From: Methanoculleus formosensis
GTDB lineage: Archaea > Halobacteriota > Methanomicrobia > Methanomicrobiales > Methanoculleaceae
Reading direction: 5' to 3'
DNA length: 64,000 nucleotides
Assembly: GCF_025384765.1 (NCBI RefSeq)
Contig: NZ_VHLL01000002.1
Span: 310,001 to 374,000, forward strand
Positions 50,228-64,000 of this stretch are shown here, piece by piece; the stretch's first letter is position 1; each line of letters opens with the position of its first letter. A program made the position numbers and the translations under genes. The notes under the pieces were generated by a model that worked only from the letters and a program-made list of their open reading frames with translations, was not told where the DNA came from and did not search any database.

Positions 50228-53200
50228 ATGGCAGACATGCATGCGAATGACATTTTCAGCATAATAAAACCACGGGCAATCATAAAGGAGGGATCTCTTT
50301 TCCCCGAAGACGTTGAAGTTCTGACCGTAAGGTCGATTGGGGTATCCCTGAAGATAGAGGGCAAGGGTCGCAATTCCGGGCAGTCTTATACACGGTTTCT
50401 CAGCCCCCAACTCTTCGGCCAGATCGAGGTGTTCCCGGAGCATGAATCATTCAATGGTGACGCACACAAATTTCGGCTTGGAATTGAAGCACGGCGGCTG
50501 GGTCTTGCTTACGAATATGATCCATTTTTTTCCCTCTCAATAGCACGGATCGATCCTCTCCCCCACCAGCTGGAAGCAGTCTATGACTATTTCCTGAAGT
50601 TGCCCCGCATACGATTCCTCCTTGCCGATGATCCGGGTGCAGGAAAGACGATCATGGCAGGTCTGCTCATCAAGGAGCTGAAGATCCGGGGTCTTGTCAA
50701 GCGTATCTTGATCGTCACGCCCGCGAATCTCACCTTCCAGTGGATGCGCGAACTCAAGGAAAAATTCCGGGAGGATTTCAGTGTCGTGCGAGGTGAGATC
50801 CTCCGTGCGGCGTATGGATCGAATCCCTGGGATGAGCGAGATCAGGTTGTCACCTCGCTTCCCTGGATTGCGCGCATTGAAGATGCACAGCAGAGTTTGT
50901 TGAAGTCAAAGCGGTGGGATCTCATCATCGTGGACGAGGCACACAAAATGAGTGCCTCCTCAGAAGACAACAAAACGCTTGCCTACCGGATTGGGGAGGA
51001 ACTCTCCAAGATGACGGATCACTACCTGCTCATGACAGCGACGCCTCATAAAGGGGACAAAGAGAACTTCCGTCTCTTCCTTTCACTGCTCGATAAGGAC
51101 GTTTATGGGGACATTGAGAGCCTGGAGCGGGCGGTAAAGACACGGGAAGCACCGTTCTATCTCAGAAGAGTGAAAGAAGCGCTTGTCAACTTCCCGGATC
51201 CGGAGACGGGGAAAGTTACCAGTCTCTTCAGGAAGCGGAATGTGTACACCGTTCCCTTTGATATCGATGCCGATGAGATCGAATTCTACGACCATCTGAC
51301 TGCATACGTTGAGAAGCAATCCGTCAGGGCAGCGGCTGACGGTACCATCCGTGGCAGGGCGCTTGGGTTTACGATGGCAATGCTCCAGCGCCGTTTTGCC
51401 TCAAGCATCTATGCGGTACGCTGCACACTTGAGCGGATGTGCAACAAGCGCGAAGAAATCCTCCGTGATCCTGAAGCATACCGGAAGAAGGAGATCGACC
51501 GGCGTCTCCAGCGAGAACTGGACAAGCGTTTTGGTGGTGAAGAGGAGGTTATAGCCGATCTTTATGATGATGAACGGGAGCGGTTGCTGCTTGAATTCGA
51601 GGAGGCAGTCATCTCGTACAGGCCGGAGGACCTTCGGGAAGAGATATCTGACCTCTCCCTGCTTGTCGTAATGGCCAAACGCCTCGAAGAACGAGAAATC
51701 GAGACCAAGCTCGTCAAGCTCAAGGAGCAGCTGACCACCGAGGGCATCTTCACCGATCCCAAGATGAAGTTGCTCATCTTCACCGAGCACAAGGACACGC
51801 TGGTGTATCTGACCGAGAAGCTCCGTTCATGGGGGCTTACGGTCACGCAGATCCACGGCGGCATGAAGATCGGCGACCGCAATACGCCGGGCTCCCGGTT
51901 GTGCGCGGAGAAGGAGTTCCGGGACGATTGCCAGGTGTTGGTCGCGACCGAGGCGGCGGGCGAGGGTATCAACCTCCAGTTCTGCTGGTTTATGATCAAC
52001 TATGATATCCCCTGGAACCCGGTCCGGCTCGAGCAGCGGATGGGGCGTATTCACCGTTACGGACAGGAGAAGGACTGTCTGATTTACAACTTCGTGGCTC
52101 AGAACACCCGGGAGGGCAGGGTGATGGATAAACTCTTCACCCGGATCAGCCTGATCGAGGACGATCTCGACCCCGAGAGGACTGGGAAGATCTTTAACGT
52201 ACTCGGCGATGTCTTCCCGGCAAACCAGATCGAGCGCAAGCTCCGGGAGATGTATGCCCAGAGCCTTGAGGTACAGGAGATCATCTCCTGGATCACTGAC
52301 GAAACTGAGGCAGAGCGGTTCAAGCATATCACAAGTTCGACACTCGAAGGACTCGCCAAGACCCATCTCAACCTCTCTGCCATCATCGGCAAGCGGGAGG
52401 AGGCAAAAGAGCGCCGCCTTGTCCCTGAAGTGGTTGCAGATTTCTTTACCGCCGGCGGGAAGCTCTGCGGCCTCAGTCTACGGGAGATGAAGAACCCATC
52501 GGGGATATTCCGTCTGGGGCAGGTCCCGCGCCTGCTCGTCCCCATCGGCGAGACGCTCGCACCACAGTTCGGGACGCTGGGGCATGAGTACAAGGAGATC
52601 TGTTTCGACAAGGAGGTGCTCAAGGCCTATCCGAATATTGAGTGGGTCACTCCCGGCCACCCACTCTTCGAGACCGTCCGCCACTTTGTGCTCCGCGAGA
52701 CGGAGAACGATCTTCGTTCCGGAGCGGTCTTCTACGATCTGCACCGTGACATTCCGGCAGTCCTTGACGTCTTCTCGGCGGCGGTCACCGACGGTCTGAG
52801 CAATACGATGCACGAGCGTCTCTTCGTCCTGGAGCACGACGGGGGCGAGCATGCAAAAGTCCGCCAGCCGACGGTGTTCCTGGATGTTATCCCGGCAGAT
52901 GAACCCGTCGCAGTTCCCGATGTCCCGCTGCCCGACTACGAGGAGGTGGAAGCCCTGCTCTATGAGCGTGCCCTCATCCCCTTTCAGGAGGAGGTAGCGA
53001 ACGAACGCAGGCGTGAGGTGGCGATCATTCGCGCTCACCTGGAGACAAGCCTGCAGGAGCTGCTCATGCGGGAGAACTCCCGTAACATGGATCTGCACAA
53101 CCGGGAGCGTGCAGGGGACTCCGACCCGACGCTCCAGGCGCAGATTGCGAACTCCGATCGTCGTCTCGACGAACTCAATCGCCGCCTGAACGTCCGCAGA

Positions 53201-53716
53201 GCCGAACTTTCCAAGGAAGAAAGCCTCACGATCGGTGCCATCCGGCACTACGGGCGGGCGTGGGTGCTCCCCCATCCCGAGCGTAACGCGAACGGAATCC
53301 GGCGCATGCGCCGCGACGATGCGATCGAGCGGATTGCCGTCGATGCCGTGATCGCCTATGAGAATGCGCGTGGCTATGAGGTGGAGAGCGTTGAGGATCA
53401 GAACTGCGGCTATGACCTGAAATCCCGGAGGTTCGATCCCGACAATCCCGATACCGCGGTGGATCTCCGGTTTATCGAGGTGAAGGGGCGATCCGGCGTG
53501 GACGACGTCTTCCTCTCCGTCAATGAGTACAGGACGGCGGTGCGGCAGAAGGAGGACTACTGGCTCTACGTCGTCTACAACTGCGCGACACCCAACCCCG
53601 AGGTCTACCCGATCCGCAATCCCGCGACGATGGGATGGGAGCCGGTGGTGAAGGTGGAGCACTACCATGCGAACGCACGGGACATTCTGGGTGCAAGTGA
53701 AAAACTAAAGAAATAA
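50228..53716 (+). CDS. SNF2-type helicase with DUF3883 nuclease-like domain (DISARM DrmD-like)
   Basis: 1162-residue DNA translocase. Walker A DDPGAGKT (134-141), DEAH (236-239), TATPHKGD, the second RecA domain with VATEAAGEGINLQF and HRYGQEKD, then a long helical region and a C-terminal DUF3883 domain with GYDLKSRR and FIEVKGRSG, a PD-(D/E)xK-like pattern. The architecture is that of DrmD of class 1 DISARM and related anti-phage systems that pair a helicase with a DNA methylase. It likely remodels or scans incoming DNA. First gene of the defence island. Confidence 0.88.
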   Translation: MADMHANDIFSIIKPRAIIKEGSLFPEDVEVLTVRSIGVSLKIEGKGRNSGQSYTRFLSPQLFGQIEVFPEHESFNGDAHKFRLGIEARRLGLAYEYDPFFSLSIARIDPLPHQLEAVYDYFLKLPRIRFLLADDPGAGKTIMAGLLIKELKIRGLVKRILIVTPANLTFQWMRELKEKFREDFSVVRGEILRAAYGSNPWDERDQVVTSLPWIARIEDAQQSLLKSKRWDLIIVDEAHKMSASSEDNKTLAYRIGEELSKMTDHYLLMTATPHKGDKENFRLFLSLLDKDVYGDIESLERAVKTREAPFYLRRVKEALVNFPDPETGKVTSLFRKRNVYTVPFDIDADEIEFYDHLTAYVEKQSVRAAADGTIRGRALGFTMAMLQRRFASSIYAVRCTLERMCNKREEILRDPEAYRKKEIDRRLQRELDKRFGGEEEVIADLYDDERERLLLEFEEAVISYRPEDLREEISDLSLLVVMAKRLEEREIETKLVKLKEQLTTEGIFTDPKMKLLIFTEHKDTLVYLTEKLRSWGLTVTQIHGGMKIGDRNTPGSRLCAEKEFRDDCQVLVATEAAGEGINLQFCWFMINYDIPWNPVRLEQRMGRIHRYGQEKDCLIYNFVAQNTREGRVMDKLFTRISLIEDDLDPERTGKIFNVLGDVFPANQIERKLREMYAQSLEVQEIISWITDETEAERFKHITSSTLEGLAKTHLNLSAIIGKREEAKERRLVPEVVADFFTAGGKLCGLSLREMKNPSGIFRLGQVPRLLVPIGETLAPQFGTLGHEYKEICFDKEVLKAYPNIEWVTPGHPLFETVRHFVLRETENDLRSGAVFYDLHRDIPAVLDVFSAAVTDGLSNTMHERLFVLEHDGGEHAKVRQPTVFLDVIPADEPVAVPDVPLPDYEEVEALLYERALIPFQEEVANERRREVAIIRAHLETSLQELLMRENSRNMDLHNRERAGDSDPTLQAQIANSDRRLDELNRRLNVRRAELSKEESLTIGAIRHYGRAWVLPHPERNANGIRRMRRDDAIERIAVDAVIAYENARGYEVESVEDQNCGYDLKSRRFDPDNPDTAVDLRFIEVKGRSGVDDVFLSVNEYRTAVRQKEDYWLYVVYNCATPNPEVYPIRNPATMGWEPVVKVEHYHANARDILGASEKLKK

Positions 53717-53721
53717 TTACA

Positions 53722-54066
53722 GACCTCCACTCGTCCATGCTCAAGCAGGATCCGATAGATCGTATTGTGGGGAATATGCATCCTATACTCCTCTTCGATC
53801 TTCTTCTCGAGATGTGTGGGGCCGAGAGAATACTGGTCCTGAGCGGCCAGGACGAGAGTTTCAGTCTCGTGCGGGATCTGAGCAGGCTTTCTTCCCGGCG
53901 CTTGTGGATAGGGATACAAGCCGGTCTGCCGATACGCTGCGATAATCTGGTAGATTCTTTGCCTGCTGACGTGATGATAGTCCGCAAGGTCACGAATAGG
54001 CCGCCCTCTCTTCCACTGACGAGTGATACTTCGGATATCCCGGTCGGAGAGTTTGCTCACAGCCAT
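53722..54066 (-). pseudogene. IS481-like transposase, N-terminal fragment
   Basis: About 115 residues from MAVSKLSDRDIRSITRQWKR with HTH (PIRDLADYHHVSRQRIYQII), PGRKPA linker and HLEKKIEEEYRMHIPHNTIY, the N-terminal DNA-binding part of an archaeal IS481-type transposase. The catalytic DDE domain is missing; homology stops next to the end of the helicase gene. It is a decayed insertion that split the island. Confidence 0.75.
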
Positions 54067-54230
54067 ATATAAATCTGGTGTCAAATGATTTCGGGGTACT
54101 ACACCTCAAATTCCAATCAGAAAACCATAACAAGGAAATGATATCATCTGGATTATGAGAATTGAAATATCGTGAGCATCAATTCATCATCGATCACCGA
54201 AGAAATGTCTGGAAAAGGATGCCTGTAGTT

Positions 54231-54275
54231 GTGAGTTCTCACGACGATGTCGTCGTTTGGGGGATAAATAATATC
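54231..54275 (+). promoter_or_regulatory. Palindromic operator and TATA box of the SIR2-STAND gene
   Basis: GTGAGTTCTCAC (54231-54242, perfect inverted repeat) is followed by the near-palindrome ACGACGATGTCGTCGT (54241-54256) and the TATA box GGATAAATAATATC (54262-54275). The TATA is 30-35 bases from GTG 54301, fitting a leaderless transcript. The palindromes could bind a repressor. Confidence 0.55.
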
Positions 54276-54300: not shown

Positions 54301-57300
54301 GTGCTTATTTCTGAAGATCTGAAAGCGCGAATTGACATCGTCAGCCGGCATCTGTCCCTCGGTGCGGTAGTTGTGGTCGGAGCGGGACTCTCGATATCCA
54401 ACCGGTTTCCGGACACTGCAGGGCTCACGTCGCTGCTGTGGGATGCGCTCGACTTTGACATGGCCACCCGCAAAGAATTCGCTCAAGCGCTTGGACAAGC
54501 GGATGCCTCAGCGAAAGAGTTAGTTGGGGATAATAAGATAAATATCCTGGCAGCGTGGGCTGCGATTGCGTCCAGCATCCCGGCTAGAGCGAGATTCCAA
54601 AAGCAGTTCGCCGCCTTGGACGCACAACGGAGCGCCCAGCCGTCACGCGCTCACGAGGCTCTGGCCTGTCTAATTCACGCGGGAGTTGTTGAGTGTGTCG
54701 TCTCGTTGAACTGGGATACAGCCCTCGAAAGCGCGTACAAGAGGCTGTACGGAACCTCGCTCCCGGAAAACCTTCTGTTCAAACCACATGGAGATGCCGC
54801 CAAGCCCGACGATCCGTGGATACTCCCTCACGAGCCCGGTCTTATCCCACCAGAGGTCACTACTAAGGTGACACTCCTCGCTAGCGAACACGCCCGCACA
54901 TTACTCGTCATCGGATTCTCGGGGAGTGACCGTGTGGTCGTCGACGAGCTCATCAAACCACTGGATAGATCGTGGCGGACCGTGCGGGTTGGCCCCAACG
55001 CGACAGGATTGGATGATCTCACAGCCGGAGCGGAAACCGTGATCCCGCTACTCGCCGAACCATACGAGAATAGGGAGGATCACTCGTCTTGGTGCGCTAT
55101 GTCTTTCTCAGGTCGGCGTGACATCGAGGCTGCGCTCCGGGGAGAGCGCCTCGGGCCGCAAGACATATTCTCCTGTCCTGAGTTGGACGAGGTGGAAGTG
55201 CTCGCCCGATCACTCCGCATGGATAAGGCGGTCGTCCTCAATGGTCAGACCGGCTCGGGCAAATCGATCACTGCATACCAAGCCTTATACCGCCTGACCC
55301 GAGAAGGCTTCGAGATACTGCGTTTACGTGATAACGCCCGCACATGTAGTCTGCGCACGTTGTTGAATGACCTTGCGCAGTTTCCCCACAAGAAAGTGCT
55401 CCTTGTGGACGATGCCCAGGATATGTCCCCGGACACTGTGCGCGAGCTCGCCGAAGCCGCCGCCGCCGATTTACTCATCCTCATTGTCGGCATCGACCAT
55501 GTAGCAGGGGGTGTGCGGACGGTGCATCTCAGCGCACGCCTGGCAGTAGTCCGTCTTTCCCGGTTCGTCCGCGAGGAACGCGCGACTCTTTTCCCCCGCA
55601 TCCGCGATCTCGACAACAGTGTTGGCACTTTCCCTAACGACGTGTTCTTCGACCGTCGCATCGACGTTGCCGAGCGGCAGCTCACTTCCTGGCAGTTCTT
55701 CTACATCCTCACAGGTGGTTGGCGACGCGTCCGTCGCGATGCCATCGAACTGCGCGACAACAACCGTGCTGACGTGGCTCTCCTGGCAATCGCAGTCGCA
55801 CAAATCGCCGGAGTTGATGCCGGTGTTAAGCGGGACGAGTTGTTGGCGATGCTGAACGTACTCGGAAGGGACAATGTGTGGCTGGACAGCAGTCTGGACA
55901 CGCTACGCGCCAGAAAGCTCGTGACTGAGGCTGACGGTCGGCTGCGGTGCACCCACCTGGAAGCCGCCCTTCACATGGTCGCCTGGATGCTCCATCCACC
56001 TGAATCTCATTGCACGCTATCAAGCCCACGAGTCGAGATTCCACCCATCCCCTCGGCAACAGGCTCAGTAAAATCGGAACAAACCGCTGTCCCCTCGCCA
56101 AAAAAACCCCGGCAGGCTCCGCTCCTCTCCAAAGAGGAGATGGATGAGGATCGTGGCACAGCCTGCGCTCTTATAGAACTCGCCCTCGACTCTCCTAACA
56201 CACCCCTGCGAGGCTGCACGTGGCTCTCCGGCCAGAGGTTTATCGAGGACACTCACTGGATTCTCGTCTCTAAAGGCGTCCTGGCACCAGATCGTTACGA
56301 TAGGCTTGCCCATCGCGCTCTCTTAACCCCAACCGATGGCGATCTGGCTGCCGCCGCTCAACTCCTCTCAGAGATTGTCAAATATTCGTGCAGTTCCGTG
56401 ATGGACACGGTGAAAGCGCACGCGTCCCGCCTTTCGGACTGGTACGGTGTCATTTCACCGGAGAATGGTTGGGCGCTTGGCGATCTAGCCAATACCATAC
56501 ACAATGTCGACAAGAGCTTTGCGGCCGAACTTGCCGGATACACAGATCCCCAACGACTCGCGAATCTCGTCCTCGACGGGGGGTGGCCGCATATCTACTC
56601 GACGTCTCACGCCCTTGATCGGATATGTACCGCCGACGGTATACCCGTCCGTGGGGCGGTTGCTGCGGAGTTAGATGAAGATGCGTATAAGCATATGCTC
56701 TCAACCGGCAACCCGAACCTGAGTGACGCGGCCCTTCTCATCGAAAACATTGCCTCGGCGGATCCCGACCTGTCCCTCCGTCTTTTTGAGTATGCAGCCC
56801 CGATGCTTGCTCACCAATTCGTCGACAACCCAGTACGCCAATGGAGCGAGATATCGGAATGTGTAATGTTCGTGCTGGGCTATGCACCGGATTTCTTACG
56901 CGTCCGTAAACGCCCTCTAGCTAACTGCCGGAGAGTCGCACAGTCGTTCATCAGAGCGCTCGACCGTAATAGGGTCGCCGAAACGATCGCCGGTCCGAGC
57001 GACCAGTGGGCGCAGATGAACTTCCACGAATTCATCCGTTTCCTATCTGAAGCCGATCCCACTACTTTTGCGGATATCGTCGACCGCGTTGATATGACCG
57101 CATTTGAGAAGTCCCTCCGATCTCATCCTGAGAAACCCTGCAAAACAGCGTTATACGTATGCGCCTGTCTGTGGGAGAACAGGCCCGACCCAATCCATGA
57201 CCTTCTCGACCGGCTCGAACCTGACCTTGCTCATCTGGATTCGCTTTTCGTATATATGGCGCCCGACGTAGCATGCCGTGCCCTGCTGCGCGGGTTGCCA

Positions 57301-57735
57301 CTCGATCTCGAACTTGACCACGACCGCTGGGGCTGGGCTGCAAGTGTTCTCGCGAGGCTCCACCAGCACAACCCCCAGGTGGCACGAGAGGTCGCCCACG
57401 CTAATCGCGAAGGAATTAAGGCAGGACTTATTATTAGTAAAAAGTCCGATCCATTAGAAGGGCTGAATAAGTGGGTCTCCGAGTGCGATCGGATCGCCCC
57501 CGGACTGATCGACTCCGTCATCAGCGACCTTCCGAAAGGGGCGGTTACTGCGTGGGGGGGCGTTATCACGCGATCAGTGAAGCACCGCCGCACCCGACGC
57601 AAGGAGATCGCCCCGCTCGTGCATCGAGCAGCACGCGCGAGCGGACACGTTCAGATGGAGGCCAAAGCGCTGCTAGTGAGGTTCCCAGCTCTCGCACACG
57701 AAGGACCTACCGGCACGACCGCACCCTCACCTTGA
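54301..57735 (+). CDS. SIR2-STAND anti-phage-type protein
   Basis: 1144 residues. Residues 1-260 are a SIR2 NADase-like domain: GAGLS (27-31), catalytic-type SLNWD (135-139), KPHGD with H163 (161-165) and IGFSGSD (204-210). Residues 290-480 are a STAND/AAA NTPase: GQTGSGKS (315-322) and LLVDDAQ (367-373). The remaining 650 residues are helical and probably sense a target. Family knowledge: such proteins deplete NAD+ upon phage sensing and kill the infected cell. GTG 54301 is preferred to GTG 54280 from the TATA position. The 3' end runs into IS66 sequence. Confidence 0.85.
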   Translation: MLISEDLKARIDIVSRHLSLGAVVVVGAGLSISNRFPDTAGLTSLLWDALDFDMATRKEFAQALGQADASAKELVGDNKINILAAWAAIASSIPARARFQKQFAALDAQRSAQPSRAHEALACLIHAGVVECVVSLNWDTALESAYKRLYGTSLPENLLFKPHGDAAKPDDPWILPHEPGLIPPEVTTKVTLLASEHARTLLVIGFSGSDRVVVDELIKPLDRSWRTVRVGPNATGLDDLTAGAETVIPLLAEPYENREDHSSWCAMSFSGRRDIEAALRGERLGPQDIFSCPELDEVEVLARSLRMDKAVVLNGQTGSGKSITAYQALYRLTREGFEILRLRDNARTCSLRTLLNDLAQFPHKKVLLVDDAQDMSPDTVRELAEAAAADLLILIVGIDHVAGGVRTVHLSARLAVVRLSRFVREERATLFPRIRDLDNSVGTFPNDVFFDRRIDVAERQLTSWQFFYILTGGWRRVRRDAIELRDNNRADVALLAIAVAQIAGVDAGVKRDELLAMLNVLGRDNVWLDSSLDTLRARKLVTEADGRLRCTHLEAALHMVAWMLHPPESHCTLSSPRVEIPPIPSATGSVKSEQTAVPSPKKPRQAPLLSKEEMDEDRGTACALIELALDSPNTPLRGCTWLSGQRFIEDTHWILVSKGVLAPDRYDRLAHRALLTPTDGDLAAAAQLLSEIVKYSCSSVMDTVKAHASRLSDWYGVISPENGWALGDLANTIHNVDKSFAAELAGYTDPQRLANLVLDGGWPHIYSTSHALDRICTADGIPVRGAVAAELDEDAYKHMLSTGNPNLSDAALLIENIASADPDLSLRLFEYAAPMLAHQFVDNPVRQWSEISECVMFVLGYAPDFLRVRKRPLANCRRVAQSFIRALDRNRVAETIAGPSDQWAQMNFHEFIRFLSEADPTTFADIVDRVDMTAFEKSLRSHPEKPCKTALYVCACLWENRPDPIHDLLDRLEPDLAHLDSLFVYMAPDVACRALLRGLPLDLELDHDRWGWAASVLARLHQHNPQVAREVAHANREGIKAGLIISKKSDPLEGLNKWVSECDRIAPGLIDSVISDLPKGAVTAWGGVITRSVKHRRTRRKEIAPLVHRAARASGHVQMEAKALLVRFPALAHEGPTGTTAPSP

Positions 57736-57976
57736 GCGAGAAATCCTGGCACTCTTGAGAGATTTCACCATGCCCTTCACCAATAATCAGGCCGAACGCG
57801 ATCTCCGAATGATGAAACTGCAGCAGAAGATCTCCGGAACATTCCGGAGTGAAGAAGGCGCTCGGAACTTCCGTAGGGTCAGAGGATTCATAGCAACCGT
57901 CAAGAAGCACGACCGCCCGGTATTATCGGAACTGGGGGAGGGTATTCGAAGGGATGCCCTTCGTCCCGAAGACGGC
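57731..57976 (+). pseudogene. IS66-family transposase, C-terminal fragment
   Basis: About 80 residues from LEREILALLRDFTMPF, with NNQAERDLRMMKLQQKISG and RNFRRVRGFIATVKK, the conserved C-terminal end of IS66 transposases. The rest is missing. Homology begins in the last bases of the SIR2-STAND gene in another frame, so the insertion or deletion joined the two. The frame runs on to 58189, but that part has no homology to a transposase. Confidence 0.8.
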
Positions 57977-58011: not shown

Positions 58012-58764
58012 CTATTCTTTATTTTTTATAGGTGGATTCTCACGGCAATCCTTGAAATACTCGCGTATTGTCGACCTGAGATCATCACGAGACCGTTTGA
58101 ATTCTTTGTATGCAAGGAAGATGCGTGCAGCATCACCGAGCGCACGATGCGGTTTGATCTTTGATTCATATGTTTTTTGGATGGAATAGTCAAAATTTTT
58201 CGATCTGAAGCAATTGTTGCTGACGTCAATGCCCAGAGCATACGAAACCCGGTCGAGTGACAAGAGTTTTTCCATCTTCAGTGCATCCTTGATTTTATCC
58301 TGGATGTCAAGGAACTGGAGATTTTTCGTATCGAATTTTGCCCGTGCGATGGCCGCCATCTCCATTCGTTTAGAGAAAAACACCATCGTCTGGATATGGT
58401 GCTCCCTGGTGAGCTTCGTAAGATAGGTATTCAGGTCAGCGTATGCAGACCACGTGACCTCAAGTGCAGGTTGGAGATCCTCCATTTCGAGGGTGTACTC
58501 CTTATCGTAGGGTAACTGGTACTGTTCCTTTGCGACGTTTGCGCAGGTGGTGGTGGATCCTGCCGTTCGTTTAAGGTCGTCGGTAGTATTTTTCCACATT
58601 TCAACGACGATATCTTTCTTGATCTTCCTTTGAGACGTTGATATCGAATCTTTTTGGCGATCATAGAGCAGGACGCCGACTTCAATCGGCATATAGATGA
58701 GTTTCTTCGTTCCATAGACGTGACCGAACTCCATATCGATGAATGCCATTTCCTGGACAACCAT
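58012..58764 (-). CDS. Putative DEDDh-type exonuclease
   Basis: 250 residues with an RNase H-like exonuclease pattern: FIDMEFG (D10, E12) near the start and HRALGDA (H206, D211) near the end, the DxE and HxxxxD motifs of DEDDh 3'-5' exonucleases. A candidate middle Asp is D145 or D153. The middle is long and Lys/Glu-rich and differs from known polymerase-type proofreading domains. It is on the opposite strand to the rest of the island, between the IS66 fragment and the methylase. Family placement is an inference from motifs. Confidence 0.6.
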   Translation of the reverse strand: MVVQEMAFIDMEFGHVYGTKKLIYMPIEVGVLLYDRQKDSISTSQRKIKKDIVVEMWKNTTDDLKRTAGSTTTCANVAKEQYQLPYDKEYTLEMEDLQPALEVTWSAYADLNTYLTKLTREHHIQTMVFFSKRMEMAAIARAKFDTKNLQFLDIQDKIKDALKMEKLLSLDRVSYALGIDVSNNCFRSKNFDYSIQKTYESKIKPHRALGDAARIFLAYKEFKRSRDDLRSTIREYFKDCRENPPIKNKE

Positions 58765-58874: not shown

Positions 58875-61757
58875 ATGGATGCCTACCCCAAACGACTCAT
58901 CGAAGTCGATCTTCCAATAAAGCAGATATCCGAACATGCCCGGCGCGAGAAATCCATCCGCCACGGCCACATATCCACGCTCCATATCTGGTGGGCGCGC
59001 CGGCCGCTCGCCGCCTGCCGGGCGGTGCTCTGTGCAGCGCTCTGGCCGGACCCTGCCGATCCACTCTGCCCGAAGGAGTTCATCATCACCGCGACGGAAC
59101 AGATGGACCGGTTCTGGAACACGCTTGATGCGACCAACTACGATCTCTCCGACCTCACCGTGCTCCGGCGGGCGCTCCTGGACTTCATCGCTGACTTTGC
59201 AAACTGGGATAACACCACCGACGAGCGCTACCTCTCGACTGCCCGGACCCTGACCGGATCCGCCCATGTCGCCCTCGGGGGCCAGCCTGGCACCCGGCCG
59301 CTCGTGGTGGATCCCTTCGCCGGCGGCGGTGCGATCCCGCTCGAGGCGCTGCGGGTCGGTGCGGATGCGTTCGCCTCCGATCTCAACCCGGTCGCGGTGC
59401 TGCTCAACAAGGTGGTGCTCGAGTACATCCCGAAGTACGGTCAGGAGCTCGCCGATGAGGTGAGGAAGTGGGGACAGTGGGTAAAGGAGGAGATGGAGAA
59501 GGATCTAGCCGAGTTCTACCCGAAAGATCCGGACGGGGCGACGCCGATTGCATATCTCTGGGCACGGACGATCACCTGTGAGAATCCGGCGTGTGGGGCG
59601 GAGGTGCCGCTCATCCGGTCGCTGTGGCTCGCGAAGAAGAAGGGGCGTTCGGTGGCGCTGAAGTTGATCCCAAATAAAGATGAGAAGCGAGTGGACTTCG
59701 AGATCGTGGAGAATCCGAAGGCATCCGAAGTTCAGGACGGGACAGTAGCACGTGGATCTGCCACCTGCCCAGTCTGTGGATATACAACTCCAGTGGAGTC
59801 AATACGGGCTCAATTTAAGACGAGACGTGGGGGAGCCGCGGATGCGCGGCTGTTCTGTGTAGTGACGACGCGGCCCGGGCAGCAGGGGCGGTTCTATCGA
59901 CTACCAAATAAAAGAGATTTAGAGGGTGTGGAAAAAGCCTCGGAGATGATAAAGCGGCGAAAGGAAGAATGGACTGGCAAATTAAGTCTTGTGCCAGATG
60001 AGCCTTTACCGCCCCAAGGCACACTTGGATTCCGCGTTCAGGGGTATGGCATGAAAGAGTGGGGTGATCTCTTCACGCCAAGACAAATTCTAGCATTGAC
60101 ATCTCTGATTCAGCTATTGAATGACCTCTATGAGACAAATAAAGAAGAAAATCTATTTAGAGCAATATGCACTTGCTTGAGCCTTGCTATAGATAAGCAA
60201 GTAGATAGTAACTCCTCTCTTTGTGCTTGGCGGGCCGTAAGTGAGGATATAGGGCACACATTTGGGCGCCAAGCTCTCCCCATGGTTTGGGATTTTGTTG
60301 AGGCAAATGTAGTTAGTGGGTCTACAAGGGATTGGGGTAACGCGGTTGAGGGTGTTTTAAAGGCACTCGAATGTTTGGATGACGGAATCAATGTAGGACA
60401 TGCCGAAAAAGCATCGGCAACAAAATTACTGTTGCCTGATGATTCAGCGCATTCATTCTTTACGGATCCGCCTTACTATGATGCCATTCCATATTCAGAC
60501 TTGTCTGATTTTTTCTATGTTTGGTTAAAGCGATCCGTCCCTCTGTCCTCATTAAACATGTTCAATGAAACCAGAGCACCAAAAGATGAGGAATGCATCG
60601 TTGATCCCATAAAAGGAAAAGACAAGCAATATTTTGAAAGAACAATGACAGATGCAATGGCAGAAGGGCGCCGAATTCTGGTTCCTAATGGAATTGGGTG
60701 CATCGTTTTTGCCCATAAGTCAACTGCTGGGTGGGAGGCAATGCTAAACTCTATGGTAGAAGCGGGTTGGATCGTCACTGGTTCATGGCCAATTGACACC
60801 GAATTGGCAAACAGATTGCGTGGCTTGAACTCCGCCGCCCTCGCCTCCTCCATCCACCTCGTCTGCCGTCCCCGCGAGAATCCCGACGGTTCGCTCCGCA
60901 CAGAAGACGTGGGCGACTGGGGCGCCGTGCTCAAAGAACTCCCGCCACGGATCCATGAGTGGATGGAGCGCCTCTCCTCCGAGAACGTCGTCGGTGCCGA
61001 CGCGATCTTTGCCTGCCTTGGTCCGGCGCTCGAAATTTACTCACGCTACTCGAGGGTCGAGAAGGTCTCCGGTGAAGAGGTGACGCTCGGGGAATACCTC
61101 GAGCATGTCTGGGCAACAGTCTCCCGGGAGGCACTCTCAACGATCTTCCAGGGCGCCGATACCGAGGGGTTCGAACCCGACGCCCGGCTCACGGCGATGT
61201 GGCTCTGGACGCTCTCCGCCGGGAACGGGAACGGGAACGGCAACGGAGATGGGGAAGATGCCCAGAAGAGCACCGGCTACTCGCTTGAGTACGACACCGC
61301 CCGCAAGATCGCCCAGGGTCTCGGGGCGCACCTCGACCAGCTGCCCGGTCTGGTCGGAATCAAGGGCAGCGAAGCCCACCTGCTGCCGGTAAGGGAGAGA
61401 GGGGACTATCTCTTCGGCCGCGGTGGCCTGTCCGCCCCGCAGAAGGCGAAACCGATCGGCAAGCAGCTCACCCTCGGAGGCGAATCGGTGGGCGGCGCCT
61501 ACGAGGCGGTAAGCATCAGGGATGCGGCGACGCTCGAGTTCACCGGCGAGACCACGCTCGACCAGGTGCACCAGGCCATGCTCCTCTTCGCCGCAGGCCG
61601 GGGCGATGCACTCGGACGATTCCTGAGAGAGGACATCGGTCGTGACCAGAAGTTTGCGAAACTCGCCCAGGCACTCTCCGCCCTCTACCCTGCCACCTCT
61701 GAGGAGCGGCGGTGGGTTGACGGCGTGCTCGCGAGGAAGAAGTCGCTTGGCCTGTGA
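58875..61757 (+). CDS. DUF1156 DNA methylase of the defence island
   Basis: 960-residue SAM-dependent DNA methyltransferase. Residues 1-60 are DUF1156 (LIEVDLPIKQISEHARREKS, HIWWARRP). The SAM-binding loop DPFAGGG is at 146-152 and the catalytic TDPPY motif at 530-534, the N6-adenine/N4-cytosine type. A zinc-ribbon-like CxxC pair lies between. Such methylases mark host DNA in DISARM-like systems. The low-GC part (about 59905-60830) suggests replacement of the target-recognition and catalytic middle by recombination. A long C-terminal region with a repeated Gly-Asn stretch follows. Confidence 0.88.
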   Translation: MDAYPKRLIEVDLPIKQISEHARREKSIRHGHISTLHIWWARRPLAACRAVLCAALWPDPADPLCPKEFIITATEQMDRFWNTLDATNYDLSDLTVLRRALLDFIADFANWDNTTDERYLSTARTLTGSAHVALGGQPGTRPLVVDPFAGGGAIPLEALRVGADAFASDLNPVAVLLNKVVLEYIPKYGQELADEVRKWGQWVKEEMEKDLAEFYPKDPDGATPIAYLWARTITCENPACGAEVPLIRSLWLAKKKGRSVALKLIPNKDEKRVDFEIVENPKASEVQDGTVARGSATCPVCGYTTPVESIRAQFKTRRGGAADARLFCVVTTRPGQQGRFYRLPNKRDLEGVEKASEMIKRRKEEWTGKLSLVPDEPLPPQGTLGFRVQGYGMKEWGDLFTPRQILALTSLIQLLNDLYETNKEENLFRAICTCLSLAIDKQVDSNSSLCAWRAVSEDIGHTFGRQALPMVWDFVEANVVSGSTRDWGNAVEGVLKALECLDDGINVGHAEKASATKLLLPDDSAHSFFTDPPYYDAIPYSDLSDFFYVWLKRSVPLSSLNMFNETRAPKDEECIVDPIKGKDKQYFERTMTDAMAEGRRILVPNGIGCIVFAHKSTAGWEAMLNSMVEAGWIVTGSWPIDTELANRLRGLNSAALASSIHLVCRPRENPDGSLRTEDVGDWGAVLKELPPRIHEWMERLSSENVVGADAIFACLGPALEIYSRYSRVEKVSGEEVTLGEYLEHVWATVSREALSTIFQGADTEGFEPDARLTAMWLWTLSAGNGNGNGNGDGEDAQKSTGYSLEYDTARKIAQGLGAHLDQLPGLVGIKGSEAHLLPVRERGDYLFGRGGLSAPQKAKPIGKQLTLGGESVGGAYEAVSIRDAATLEFTGETTLDQVHQAMLLFAAGRGDALGRFLREDIGRDQKFAKLAQALSALYPATSEERRWVDGVLARKKSLGL
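59905..60830. other. Low-GC block inside the DUF1156 methylase gene
   Basis: Line counts: 19 of 60 G/C at 60121-60180, against 43 of 60 at 59341-59400 and 41 of 60 at 60841-60900. The right edge is sharp near 60830 and the left edge is gradual between about 59690 and 59905. The reading frame is intact throughout. It covers the DPPY motif and surrounding recognition region. Confidence 0.75.
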
Positions 61758-61827: not shown

Positions 61828-64000
61828 ATGGCAATGAAACCCTGGTATAAAGTGGTCACGCCGCGGGAAGATCTGCGGGAAGGAAGGCCACAGGACGCAT
61901 CGGAATTCGCCGTGCACCTCGATAAGGTGCGGGAGGGCTCGGCGCCCCGCGACTATCAGGACCCGCGCCGGTTCTTCGAGCGGACGTATCTCACCGAGAC
62001 GCTCTGCTCGTTCGCAGCAGATGTCGTCGCCCGCCTCTCCGGCAAGACGGTCGAGACGAGCGCCGTATACAACCTGACGACACAGTTCGGAGGCGGAAAG
62101 ACCCACGCGCTCACCCTCGCGTACCACCTTGCCCGTGCCGGATCGAAGGCATATGCCTGGCCGGGTGTCATGGAGATTGCAAATAAGGCCGGTGTATCCA
62201 CCCTCCCCGAAGCTGCCACTGCCATCTTCGTCGGCACCGAGTTTGACTCGCTCACCGGCAGGGGTGGCGAGGATGGCACGCCGCTCCGCAAGACTCCGTG
62301 GGGCGAGATCGCCTTCCAGCTTGGTGGATCCGAGGCCTTCGAGAAAGTCCGTGAGCACGACGAGCGGATGGTTGCACCGGGCGGAGATGTCATCCGCTCT
62401 ATCCTCCCGAAGGATAAGCCAAGCCTCATCCTCATGGACGAGATCGTCAACTACACCAACCGCTCCCGCAAGCTCAAGAACGGCATGGCAGAACAACTCT
62501 ACGTCTTCATCCACAACCTCTCCGAAACGGCTCGAAGCACTCAGGGAATTGTTCTTGCCATCTCCGTCCCTGCTTCTGAACTCGAGATGACCACCGATGA
62601 CCAGGGCGACTACATTAAACTCGAAAAACTTCTTGAGCGGGTCGGGAAAGCCTATATTATGTCCGCGCGGTCCGAGACCGCCGAGATCATCCGCCGTCGC
62701 CTCTTCGAGTGGGAGGGGGTCCCCTCTGACGCAAAGACCACCATCGCCGAGTACGCCGACTGGGTCCGGGAGTACCGCCATACGATCCCGAACTGGTTCC
62801 CTGTCGACCAGCCTTACGAACCGTTCGAAGCGACCTACCCCTTCCACCCCATGGCGCTCTCGGTTTTTGAGCGTAAATGGCAGGCGTTGCCCACGTTCCA
62901 GCAGACACGCGGCGTATTGAAACTCCTCGCCCTCTGGGTCTCGTACGCTTACCAGAAGAGTTACCGCAAGGGCGAGAAGGCACCGCTCATCACGCTCGGC
63001 TCAGCACCACTTGAGGACCCCCTCTTCCGGGCTGCTGCCCTCAAGCAGATCGGTGAAGGCAGGTTTGAAGGTGTCATCACCACGGATATCTGTGGCAACG
63101 CCAATTCCCATGCGACCCGCCTGGACGATGAAGCAGGGGAACCCATCCGGTCGCATCATCTCCACCAGAGCGTGGCCACCACCATCTTCTTCGAGTCGAT
63201 CAGTGGGGGTGCAGGCCGGACCGCTGCCACACTACCCGAGGTCCGGCTGGCAGTCGGGGGTCCCGGTGTGGACACCGCCAACATCGACACCGTTCTGGAA
63301 GGACTCGCACCCCCTACTGGAAACTGCTTTTTCCTCAACGCCGAAAATAACATCTACCGGTTCGGGGTCAAGACGAACCTTATCAAGATCCATGCGGACC
63401 GAAAAGCCAGCATCGACGAGAGGGAAATCCACACCCTCGTCAAGGAGAACGTCAGGAAGGTGTTCGACCAGGCGTCTACAGTCGAACGGGTCTACTTCCC
63501 GAAACGGAGCGGCGATGTGATGGACAAGCCAGCCATTATGCTGGCTGTGATGGCACCGAACAGGGAGACCACCAGCGAAGAAACCAGAACGATGGTGCTT
63601 GAGTTCTCCAAGCATCATGGCGAAGCAGGCAGAACCTACAAGAGCGCGCTCATCTGGTCGATGGCGTCCGATTCGAGCAGTCTCTACGAAGCAGCACGTG
63701 ATCACCTCGCTTGGAAGGAGATTTCAGATGAGGCAGATGCCCTCAACCTCGATGAAGGGCAGCGTAAACAGGTGCGGCAATACACTGAATCCTCAAAGCG
63801 GGCCATCAAGGAGAAGGTCTGGGAAGCTTACAACATGATCGGTCTCTACACTGAGAGAGATGACATCGAGTTTATCGATCTCGGCCGGATCAATTCCAGT
63901 GCATCTGAGTCGATCACACGCCTCATCACCACCAGATTGAACCAACTGGAGAAGCTTACTGGCACCGTCGGTTCGAACTTCCTTGTGCGCAACTGGTCAC
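61828..64000 (+). CDS. DUF499 ATPase, C-terminus beyond the window
   Basis: At least 724 residues of a large AAA-type ATPase of the DUF499 family. Walker A FGGGKTH (about 87-93), Walker B LILMDEIVNY (about 199-208), then a helical region with SLFVRNW-type end missing. ATG 61828 follows GAGGGAATGTTGG. The family occurs beside DUF1156 methylases in defence islands and is thought to be the system's NTPase core. It starts 70 bases after the methylase and is probably in the same operon. Cut by the right edge. Confidence 0.87.
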   Translation, partial: MAMKPWYKVVTPREDLREGRPQDASEFAVHLDKVREGSAPRDYQDPRRFFERTYLTETLCSFAADVVARLSGKTVETSAVYNLTTQFGGGKTHALTLAYHLARAGSKAYAWPGVMEIANKAGVSTLPEAATAIFVGTEFDSLTGRGGEDGTPLRKTPWGEIAFQLGGSEAFEKVREHDERMVAPGGDVIRSILPKDKPSLILMDEIVNYTNRSRKLKNGMAEQLYVFIHNLSETARSTQGIVLAISVPASELEMTTDDQGDYIKLEKLLERVGKAYIMSARSETAEIIRRRLFEWEGVPSDAKTTIAEYADWVREYRHTIPNWFPVDQPYEPFEATYPFHPMALSVFERKWQALPTFQQTRGVLKLLALWVSYAYQKSYRKGEKAPLITLGSAPLEDPLFRAAALKQIGEGRFEGVITTDICGNANSHATRLDDEAGEPIRSHHLHQSVATTIFFESISGGAGRTAATLPEVRLAVGGPGVDTANIDTVLEGLAPPTGNCFFLNAENNIYRFGVKTNLIKIHADRKASIDEREIHTLVKENVRKVFDQASTVERVYFPKRSGDVMDKPAIMLAVMAPNRETTSEETRTMVLEFSKHHGEAGRTYKSALIWSMASDSSSLYEAARDHLAWKEISDEADALNLDEGQRKQVRQYTESSKRAIKEKVWEAYNMIGLYTERDDIEFIDLGRINSSASESITRLITTRLNQLEKLTGTVGSNFLVRNWS

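Follow-up and report, generated by a model that had tools for sequence, protein, structure and literature searches.

A putative SIR2-STAND immune sensor with a helical-solenoid C-terminus, lodged in an HMA defence operon of Methanoculleus formosensis

SIR2-bearing sensors and genes embedded in HMA operons

A hallmark of STAND immune proteins is an exchangeable N-terminal enzyme mounted on a conserved switch and sensor. Avs5 (AVAST type 5, represented by EfAvs5 and PaAvs5) combines an N-terminal SIR2 domain, a central nSTAND3-like NTPase and a C-terminal helical-repeat sensor; it senses a phage protein, depends on both its repeat domain and its STAND ATPase, and uses SIR2 to hydrolyse NAD+ (PMC12931631). 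A second group of known elements is represented by single defence-type genes located inside HMA (DUF499/DUF1156/helicase) operons, that is, the Hma-embedded candidates (HECs) and the back-up effectors of BREX-related loci. Antiviral activity has been validated for some of the Hma-embedded genes (Payne et al. 2024, as cited in PMC12988326), and a survey of the embedded back-up effectors of DUF499 systems argues for a back-up role of the genes in such loci (PMC12839542); the effectors described in the main text of that survey are nucleases, and the words 'SIR2' and 'NADase' are absent from it.

Here we describe a gene that resembles both groups. It was analysed within a 64,000-nt stretch of Methanoculleus formosensis DNA (contig NZ_VHLL01000002.1, positions 310,001 to 374,000; the window hereafter), for which a preliminary description had proposed an intact SIR2-STAND suicide sensor in a methanogen. 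The host is indeed a methanogen, since its genome carries two MCR-alpha genes. The gene is also intact, while the HMA operon that surrounds it, with hmaA upstream and hmaB downstream, had been overlooked.

Reading frame and domain architecture

The gene spans positions 54301..57735 of the plus strand and codes for 1144 residues from a GTG codon, as judged from the ORF translation, the motifs and the start points of the relatives. The reading frame is open already from GTG 54280 to TGA 57735 (1151 residues), but GTG 54301 is the more likely start, because a TATA-like box (ATAAATAATAT, 54264..54274, plus strand) lies too near the former codon and 27-37 nt before the latter, and because the actinobacterial relatives start at about the equivalent point. 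This box is probably part of an archaeal promoter, from which a near-leaderless mRNA would start at 54301. Directly upstream of it maps a perfect 7-bp inverted repeat (ACGACGA-TG-TCGTCGT, 54241..54256), and dinucleotide shuffling of the 216-bp region produced an equally good one in 9.7% of cases. Thus, of the promoter and palindromic operator previously assigned to the gene, a promoter of its own is plausible, whereas the palindrome, although real, occurs at chance level and gives no evidence for an operator. The gene is present in single copy in its genome, and its base composition and third-position GC are similar to those of the neighbouring genes; by composition, therefore, it is no fresh arrival.

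The encoded protein consists, in this order, of a SIR2 domain, a STAND NTPase, a winged helix and a helical region of about 530 residues (residue numbers count from GTG 54301 unless stated otherwise). Specifically, the SIR2-like, putative NADase domain covers residues 5-258 (54313..55074, plus strand, as are all the following features of the protein), and contains the motifs GAGLS (54379-54393), SLNWD (54703-54717, with the catalytic N137) and KPHGD (54781-54795, with H163). The STAND nucleotide-binding domain (55189..55527) includes the P-loop GQTGSGKS (55243-55266) and the Walker B motif VLLVDD (55396-55413). All these motifs, already named in the preliminary description, were found in the translation. 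In the family alignment, every one of the eight SIR2-bearing relatives keeps N137 and H163, and the P-loop K321 and the Walker B residues D370/D371 are unchanged in all 11 aligned members.

When searched against Pfam, the NTPase matched nSTAND_NTPase5 (2.4e-07) and nSTAND3 (1.4e-05), both slightly below the curated cut-offs; across the family the former matched 11 of 11 members and the latter 10 of 11, with a best nSTAND3 value of 5.3e-13. The Pfam SIR2_2 match is weak (0.027), and we accept the SIR2 fold nonetheless because it is clear in the structure model. In fact, the SIR2 part aligned to an archaeal Sir2 with Z 15.7 (rmsd 4.2, 192 residues aligned) and to the SIR2 domains of SPARSA, KomBC, ThsA and DSR2 with Z 12-15 (VIA-align 2). 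The sirtuin/NADase fold, whose absence was to speak against the earlier proposal, was thus found at residues 12-265 in the numbering from GTG 54280, although the pocket geometry around H163 is of low confidence in the model (pLDDT < 50 at residues 162-180).

The structural matches also bear on the chemistry of the domain. True deacylases (archaeal Sir2, Hst2) stand among the best of them at the same Z as SPARSA, as would be the case if the domain were an ADP-ribosyl-transferring or deacylating enzyme rather than a bulk NADase, and the protein regulated rather than killed. Such matches are, however, expected from the shared fold, and the SIR2 domains linked to STAND or solenoid sensors that have been tested (Avs5, DSR2) hydrolyse NAD+ (PMC12931631; PMC10981675), so that we regard this alternative as very improbable and favour a predicted NADase.

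The full-length AF2 model, built from a six-sequence alignment, is of moderate quality (pLDDT 74.6, pTM 0.55) and contains SIR2, STAND nucleotide-binding, helical and winged-helix-like domains, a disordered linker and a long helical region. The helix/strand pattern of this model points to the winged-helix-like domain at about residues 490-564 (55768..55992), C-terminal to the helical segment of the STAND module. It is followed by the linker (56002..56121), which shows pLDDT < 50 and 23-34% identity to close relatives, and by the C-terminal region (56122..57699). The latter, left without a recognised repeat family in the preliminary description, was predicted separately as an ARM/HEAT-type alpha-solenoid made entirely of paired helices (pLDDT 85.8, pTM 0.76), and is the proposed sensor. 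Foldseek (1e-4) and VIA-align (Z up to 11.4) relate it to ARM/HEAT and other helical-repeat proteins of a generic kind, none of them a specific non-defence protein; since the best VIA-align Z falls short of the threshold that the tool sets for helical repeats, we assign a fold class and claim no specific relative. Avs5, DSR2 and SAMD9 are not in the VIA-align list of the solenoid, an absence that carries no weight.

By comparing the protein with known systems, its likeness to Avs5 emerges in the domain content: a SIR2-like effector with intact catalytic residues, a nSTAND3-type NTPase with Walker A and B motifs, and a helical C-terminus. For the whole model the best Foldseek match in the PDB was the EfAvs5 SIR2-STAND structure (9jap, 1.1e-10), with SAMD9 and the AVAST5 filament ranking next; the whole-chain TM-scores to EfAvs5 are low (~0.2), so that domain content is comparable and domain packing is not. 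Unlike Avs5, the methanogen protein is longer, has an archaeal host and lacks any sequence-level match outside the P-loop, where the family profile reaches EfAvs5 at 0.003. A TPR/Avs5-type sensor was considered and dropped, because the C-terminus gave no TPR, Sel1 or PPR match in Pfam and its separate model is of the ARM/HEAT type, whereas TPR/Sel1/PPR sensors are those reported for Avs5 (PMC12931631). No Avs5 family model matched in PADLOC or NCBIfam, as far as these libraries include such models, and among the PADLOC-DB 2.0 models the gene matched none beyond weak SIR2-domain hits. DSR2 is similar in joining a SIR2 NADase to a long helical C-terminal sensor (VIA-align Z ~12); to our knowledge it has no STAND NTPase, and the methanogen protein differs from DSR1/DSR2 in its intact STAND module with invariant P-loop and Walker B. 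All together, these comparisons indicate that the protein may work like Avs5, with a putative NADase activity, but would belong to a separate, uncatalogued sequence family.

Relatives, effector exchange and origin

Scanning genomes with this one protein as query at first returned no relatives; a scan with an alignment then found six. Through these scans, full-length SIR2-STAND-solenoid relatives were recovered from three Streptomyces species, Flexivirga and Microbacterium (45-48% identity; the Microbacterium contig has a break) and from a Rhodococcus plasmid (41%), those at 41-48% being all actinobacterial. More distant ones occur in a Rhodoglobus MAG and in one further genome of the actinobacterial phylum, and a single Planococcus protein shows 25% identity. 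None was found in the viral contigs and phage records scanned. Within its own phylum the gene is present in one of 294 genomes, its own, and is absent from the 293 others, which include 11 other species of its genus; so rare an occurrence offers no indication that the archaeon has kept it for long. Where the surroundings of relatives were read, they were never those of an HMA operon. In the actinobacterial locus L053 (2825-12492) the SIR2-STAND relative has as neighbours a HerA-like ATPase, a possible NurA-like protein and a Dam-type methylase on the opposite strand.

A maximum-likelihood tree joins the methanogen protein to those of Streptomyces, Flexivirga and Rhodococcus, with support of 100/100 when all sites are used and of 99/100 for STAND plus solenoid, and places it within this group and no finer. 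This grouping, together with the absence from the rest of its phylum, suggests that the gene was transferred between domains; the direction, read from the spread of the family, would be from bacteria to the archaeon, most likely from an actinobacterial-type source. Hence, what had been presented as an archaeal version of such proteins appears by descent, from the tree and the taxonomic spread, to be an import of an actinobacterial-type family.

Proteins of Janthinobacterium and of replicons from Klebsiella, Enterobacter and E. coli (WP_023300121 for Klebsiella/E. coli) align over the STAND module at 32-34% identity (E 1e-16 to 3e-20), and the alignment runs on over the solenoid at 15-17% identity, the two parts standing in the same order as in the methanogen. 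Their first ~200 residues differ, being restriction-nuclease-like (GVD...VQCK) instead of SIR2. Between the Klebsiella and Janthinobacterium N-termini E18, GVD48 and VQC-K66 are invariant, a D-QxK pattern of the kind seen in Mrr-type restriction nucleases; the sole match of the Klebsiella N-terminus is a PHROG of unknown function (4e-27). That homologous STAND and solenoid parts carry two different enzymes would follow from an N-terminus that serves as an exchangeable effector, and the tripartite effector-NTPase-sensor order of STAND defence proteins, exchange included, is thus found in this family. In addition, SIR2 and the STAND core are 57% and 54% identical, respectively, to those of Streptomyces, and the solenoid ~39%; the solenoid is therefore the fastest-changing folded part, as expected of a sensor.

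Among 5426 complete E. coli genomes, 27 contain near-identical DNA encoding the nuclease-STAND protein, and such DNA occurs on Klebsiella plasmids as well. In both Klebsiella and E. coli the gene adjoins Hachiman in a defence island (L058, E. coli NZ_CP063503.1, 12001-15123; L007, 7413-10535); here and in Janthinobacterium the proteins are annotated as 'hypothetical'.

Position in the HMA operon and proposed function

The surroundings of the methanogen gene form a complete, BREX-related HMA operon, in which a SNF2 helicase, a DUF1156 adenine methyltransferase and a DUF499 ATPase follow each other in order on the plus strand: hmaA (50228..53716; PADLOC HmaA 2.8e-193), hmaB (58875..61757; PADLOC HmaB 2.7e-138, DUF1156 1.7e-22) and hmaC (61828..64000, running past the window to 64791; DUF499 4.7e-27). 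The distance between hmaA and hmaB is 5158 bp, compared to ~50 and ~230 bp in two other loci (L031 and L029, respectively) that share 61-63% identity with the window in HmaA and HmaB. The resulting 5.16-kb insert contains, besides the SIR2-STAND gene, a truncated transposase start with a helix-turn-helix (Pfam HTH_32/HTH_23; 53717..54084, minus strand) that abuts the end of hmaA, an IS66 transposase fragment directly after the gene (57758..57865, plus strand) that corresponds to its last ~36 residues (PF03050 4.9e-09, profile positions 248-283 of 284), and a minus-strand ORF of 250 residues (58012..58764) with a GC content lower than that of its neighbours. A search of the genome for further copies of the flanking transposase fragments found none. 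For the 250-residue ORF, searches of Pfam, NCBIfam, PADLOC, PHROGs and the PDB yielded nothing convincing, and its reading by eye as DEDD-exonuclease-like was dropped, as no library supported it.

The hmaA-hmaB gap is occupied in other archaeal HMA operons as well, by a Schlafen-type gene in two loci (L030, 6673-8370; L032, 3021-4703; called by eye from the sequence and the description in PMC12839542) and by the nuclease PDC-S02 in a third (L036, 6753-7880), which makes it a repeated landing place for defence-type genes. HEC-05 is found between hmaB and hmaC in a further archaeal locus (L035, 11684-13357). Seated within a complete hmaA-hmaB-hmaC operon, the SIR2-STAND gene is an uncatalogued Hma-embedded gene. 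In one archaeal family, a 4-5 kb insert interrupts HmaB itself near residue 500 (L033, 1763-8407; L034, 6279-13793; also genomes G127, G063, G050 and G282) and leaves its two halves as separate ORFs; several genomes share almost the same break point. Among the genes of the insert are an ATPase with OLD/GajA-like matches and a possible HEPN-MNT pair.

The transposase remnants on either side, together with the occurrence in a single genome and the bacterial nearest relatives, would also suit a recently inserted, perhaps silent passenger, cargo of a mobile element in a tolerated intergenic spot and with no role in the archaeon. We hold this to be unlikely, because the ORF is intact over 1144 codons with its catalytic residues all kept, a TATA-like archaeal promoter is present, and the neighbour-like composition suggests some residence time.

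The exact seat between hmaA and hmaB of an otherwise complete operon, the use of the same slot by other genes, and the back-up role argued for genes so embedded (PMC12839542) could indicate a protein that is not autonomous but guards HMA, being triggered when restriction by HmaA-C fails or is inhibited and not by a viral protein of its own. This possibility, to which we give as little credit as to the silent passenger, is countered by the relatives, which sit outside HMA operons and imply that the protein needs none, as well as by its own putative promoter and the mobile-element remnants on its flanks. A slightly more doubtful variant joins several of these elements: a distinct STAND family, with an ARM/HEAT-solenoid sensor and a SIR2 or nuclease effector, would have passed from actinobacteria to the methanogen and been wired into HMA as an NAD+-depleting fail-safe, firing when HMA is beaten.

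In conclusion, the explanation that we consider clearly the most probable is that of a single-gene antiviral STAND protein with an effector-switch-sensor layout, an Avs5-like abortive-infection NADase imported from bacteria, which resides in the HMA operon as a passenger or back-up effector. Its autonomous action is favoured by the position of the relatives outside HMA operons, and defence genes surround the gene both here and in its relatives. By analogy with Avs5 we infer NADase activity, oligomerisation, a viral trigger and a function in the archaeon. In the proposed mechanism, the ARM/HEAT-like solenoid would bind a viral or virus-altered protein, and this binding would free the ATP-bound STAND module to oligomerise; the N-terminal SIR2 domains would be clustered as a result and hydrolyse NAD+, and the loss of NAD+ would stop the infected cell. 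The methanogen would have acquired the gene from a bacterial, most likely actinobacterial-type, source, and its present seat between hmaA and hmaB may be that of a passenger or of a back-up effector. The earlier proposal of a SIR2-STAND sensor is in agreement with the sirtuin/NADase fold of the model and with a helical C-terminus that has no specific non-defence match.

Proteins of this kind are already known, while the libraries searched catalogue neither the family, nor its sensor type, nor an archaeal setting within HMA. SIR2-STAND immune proteins would thereby gain an uncatalogued family with a sensor unlike that reported for Avs5, in which effector swapping points out the part that acts as sensor. 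The relatives carried by the 27 E. coli genomes, annotated as hypothetical proteins, bring a search for the trigger within reach of a laboratory strain. The locus is a clear example of an archaeon with a suicide sensor of bacterial type inside another defence operon; if the fail-safe reading were true, it would provide the HMA system with an NADase back-up and the archaeon with an abortive defence. Archaeal immunity is described as less rich in known systems (PMC12988326), and a bacterial-type gene inside an HMA operon bears on how that immunity is supplied.
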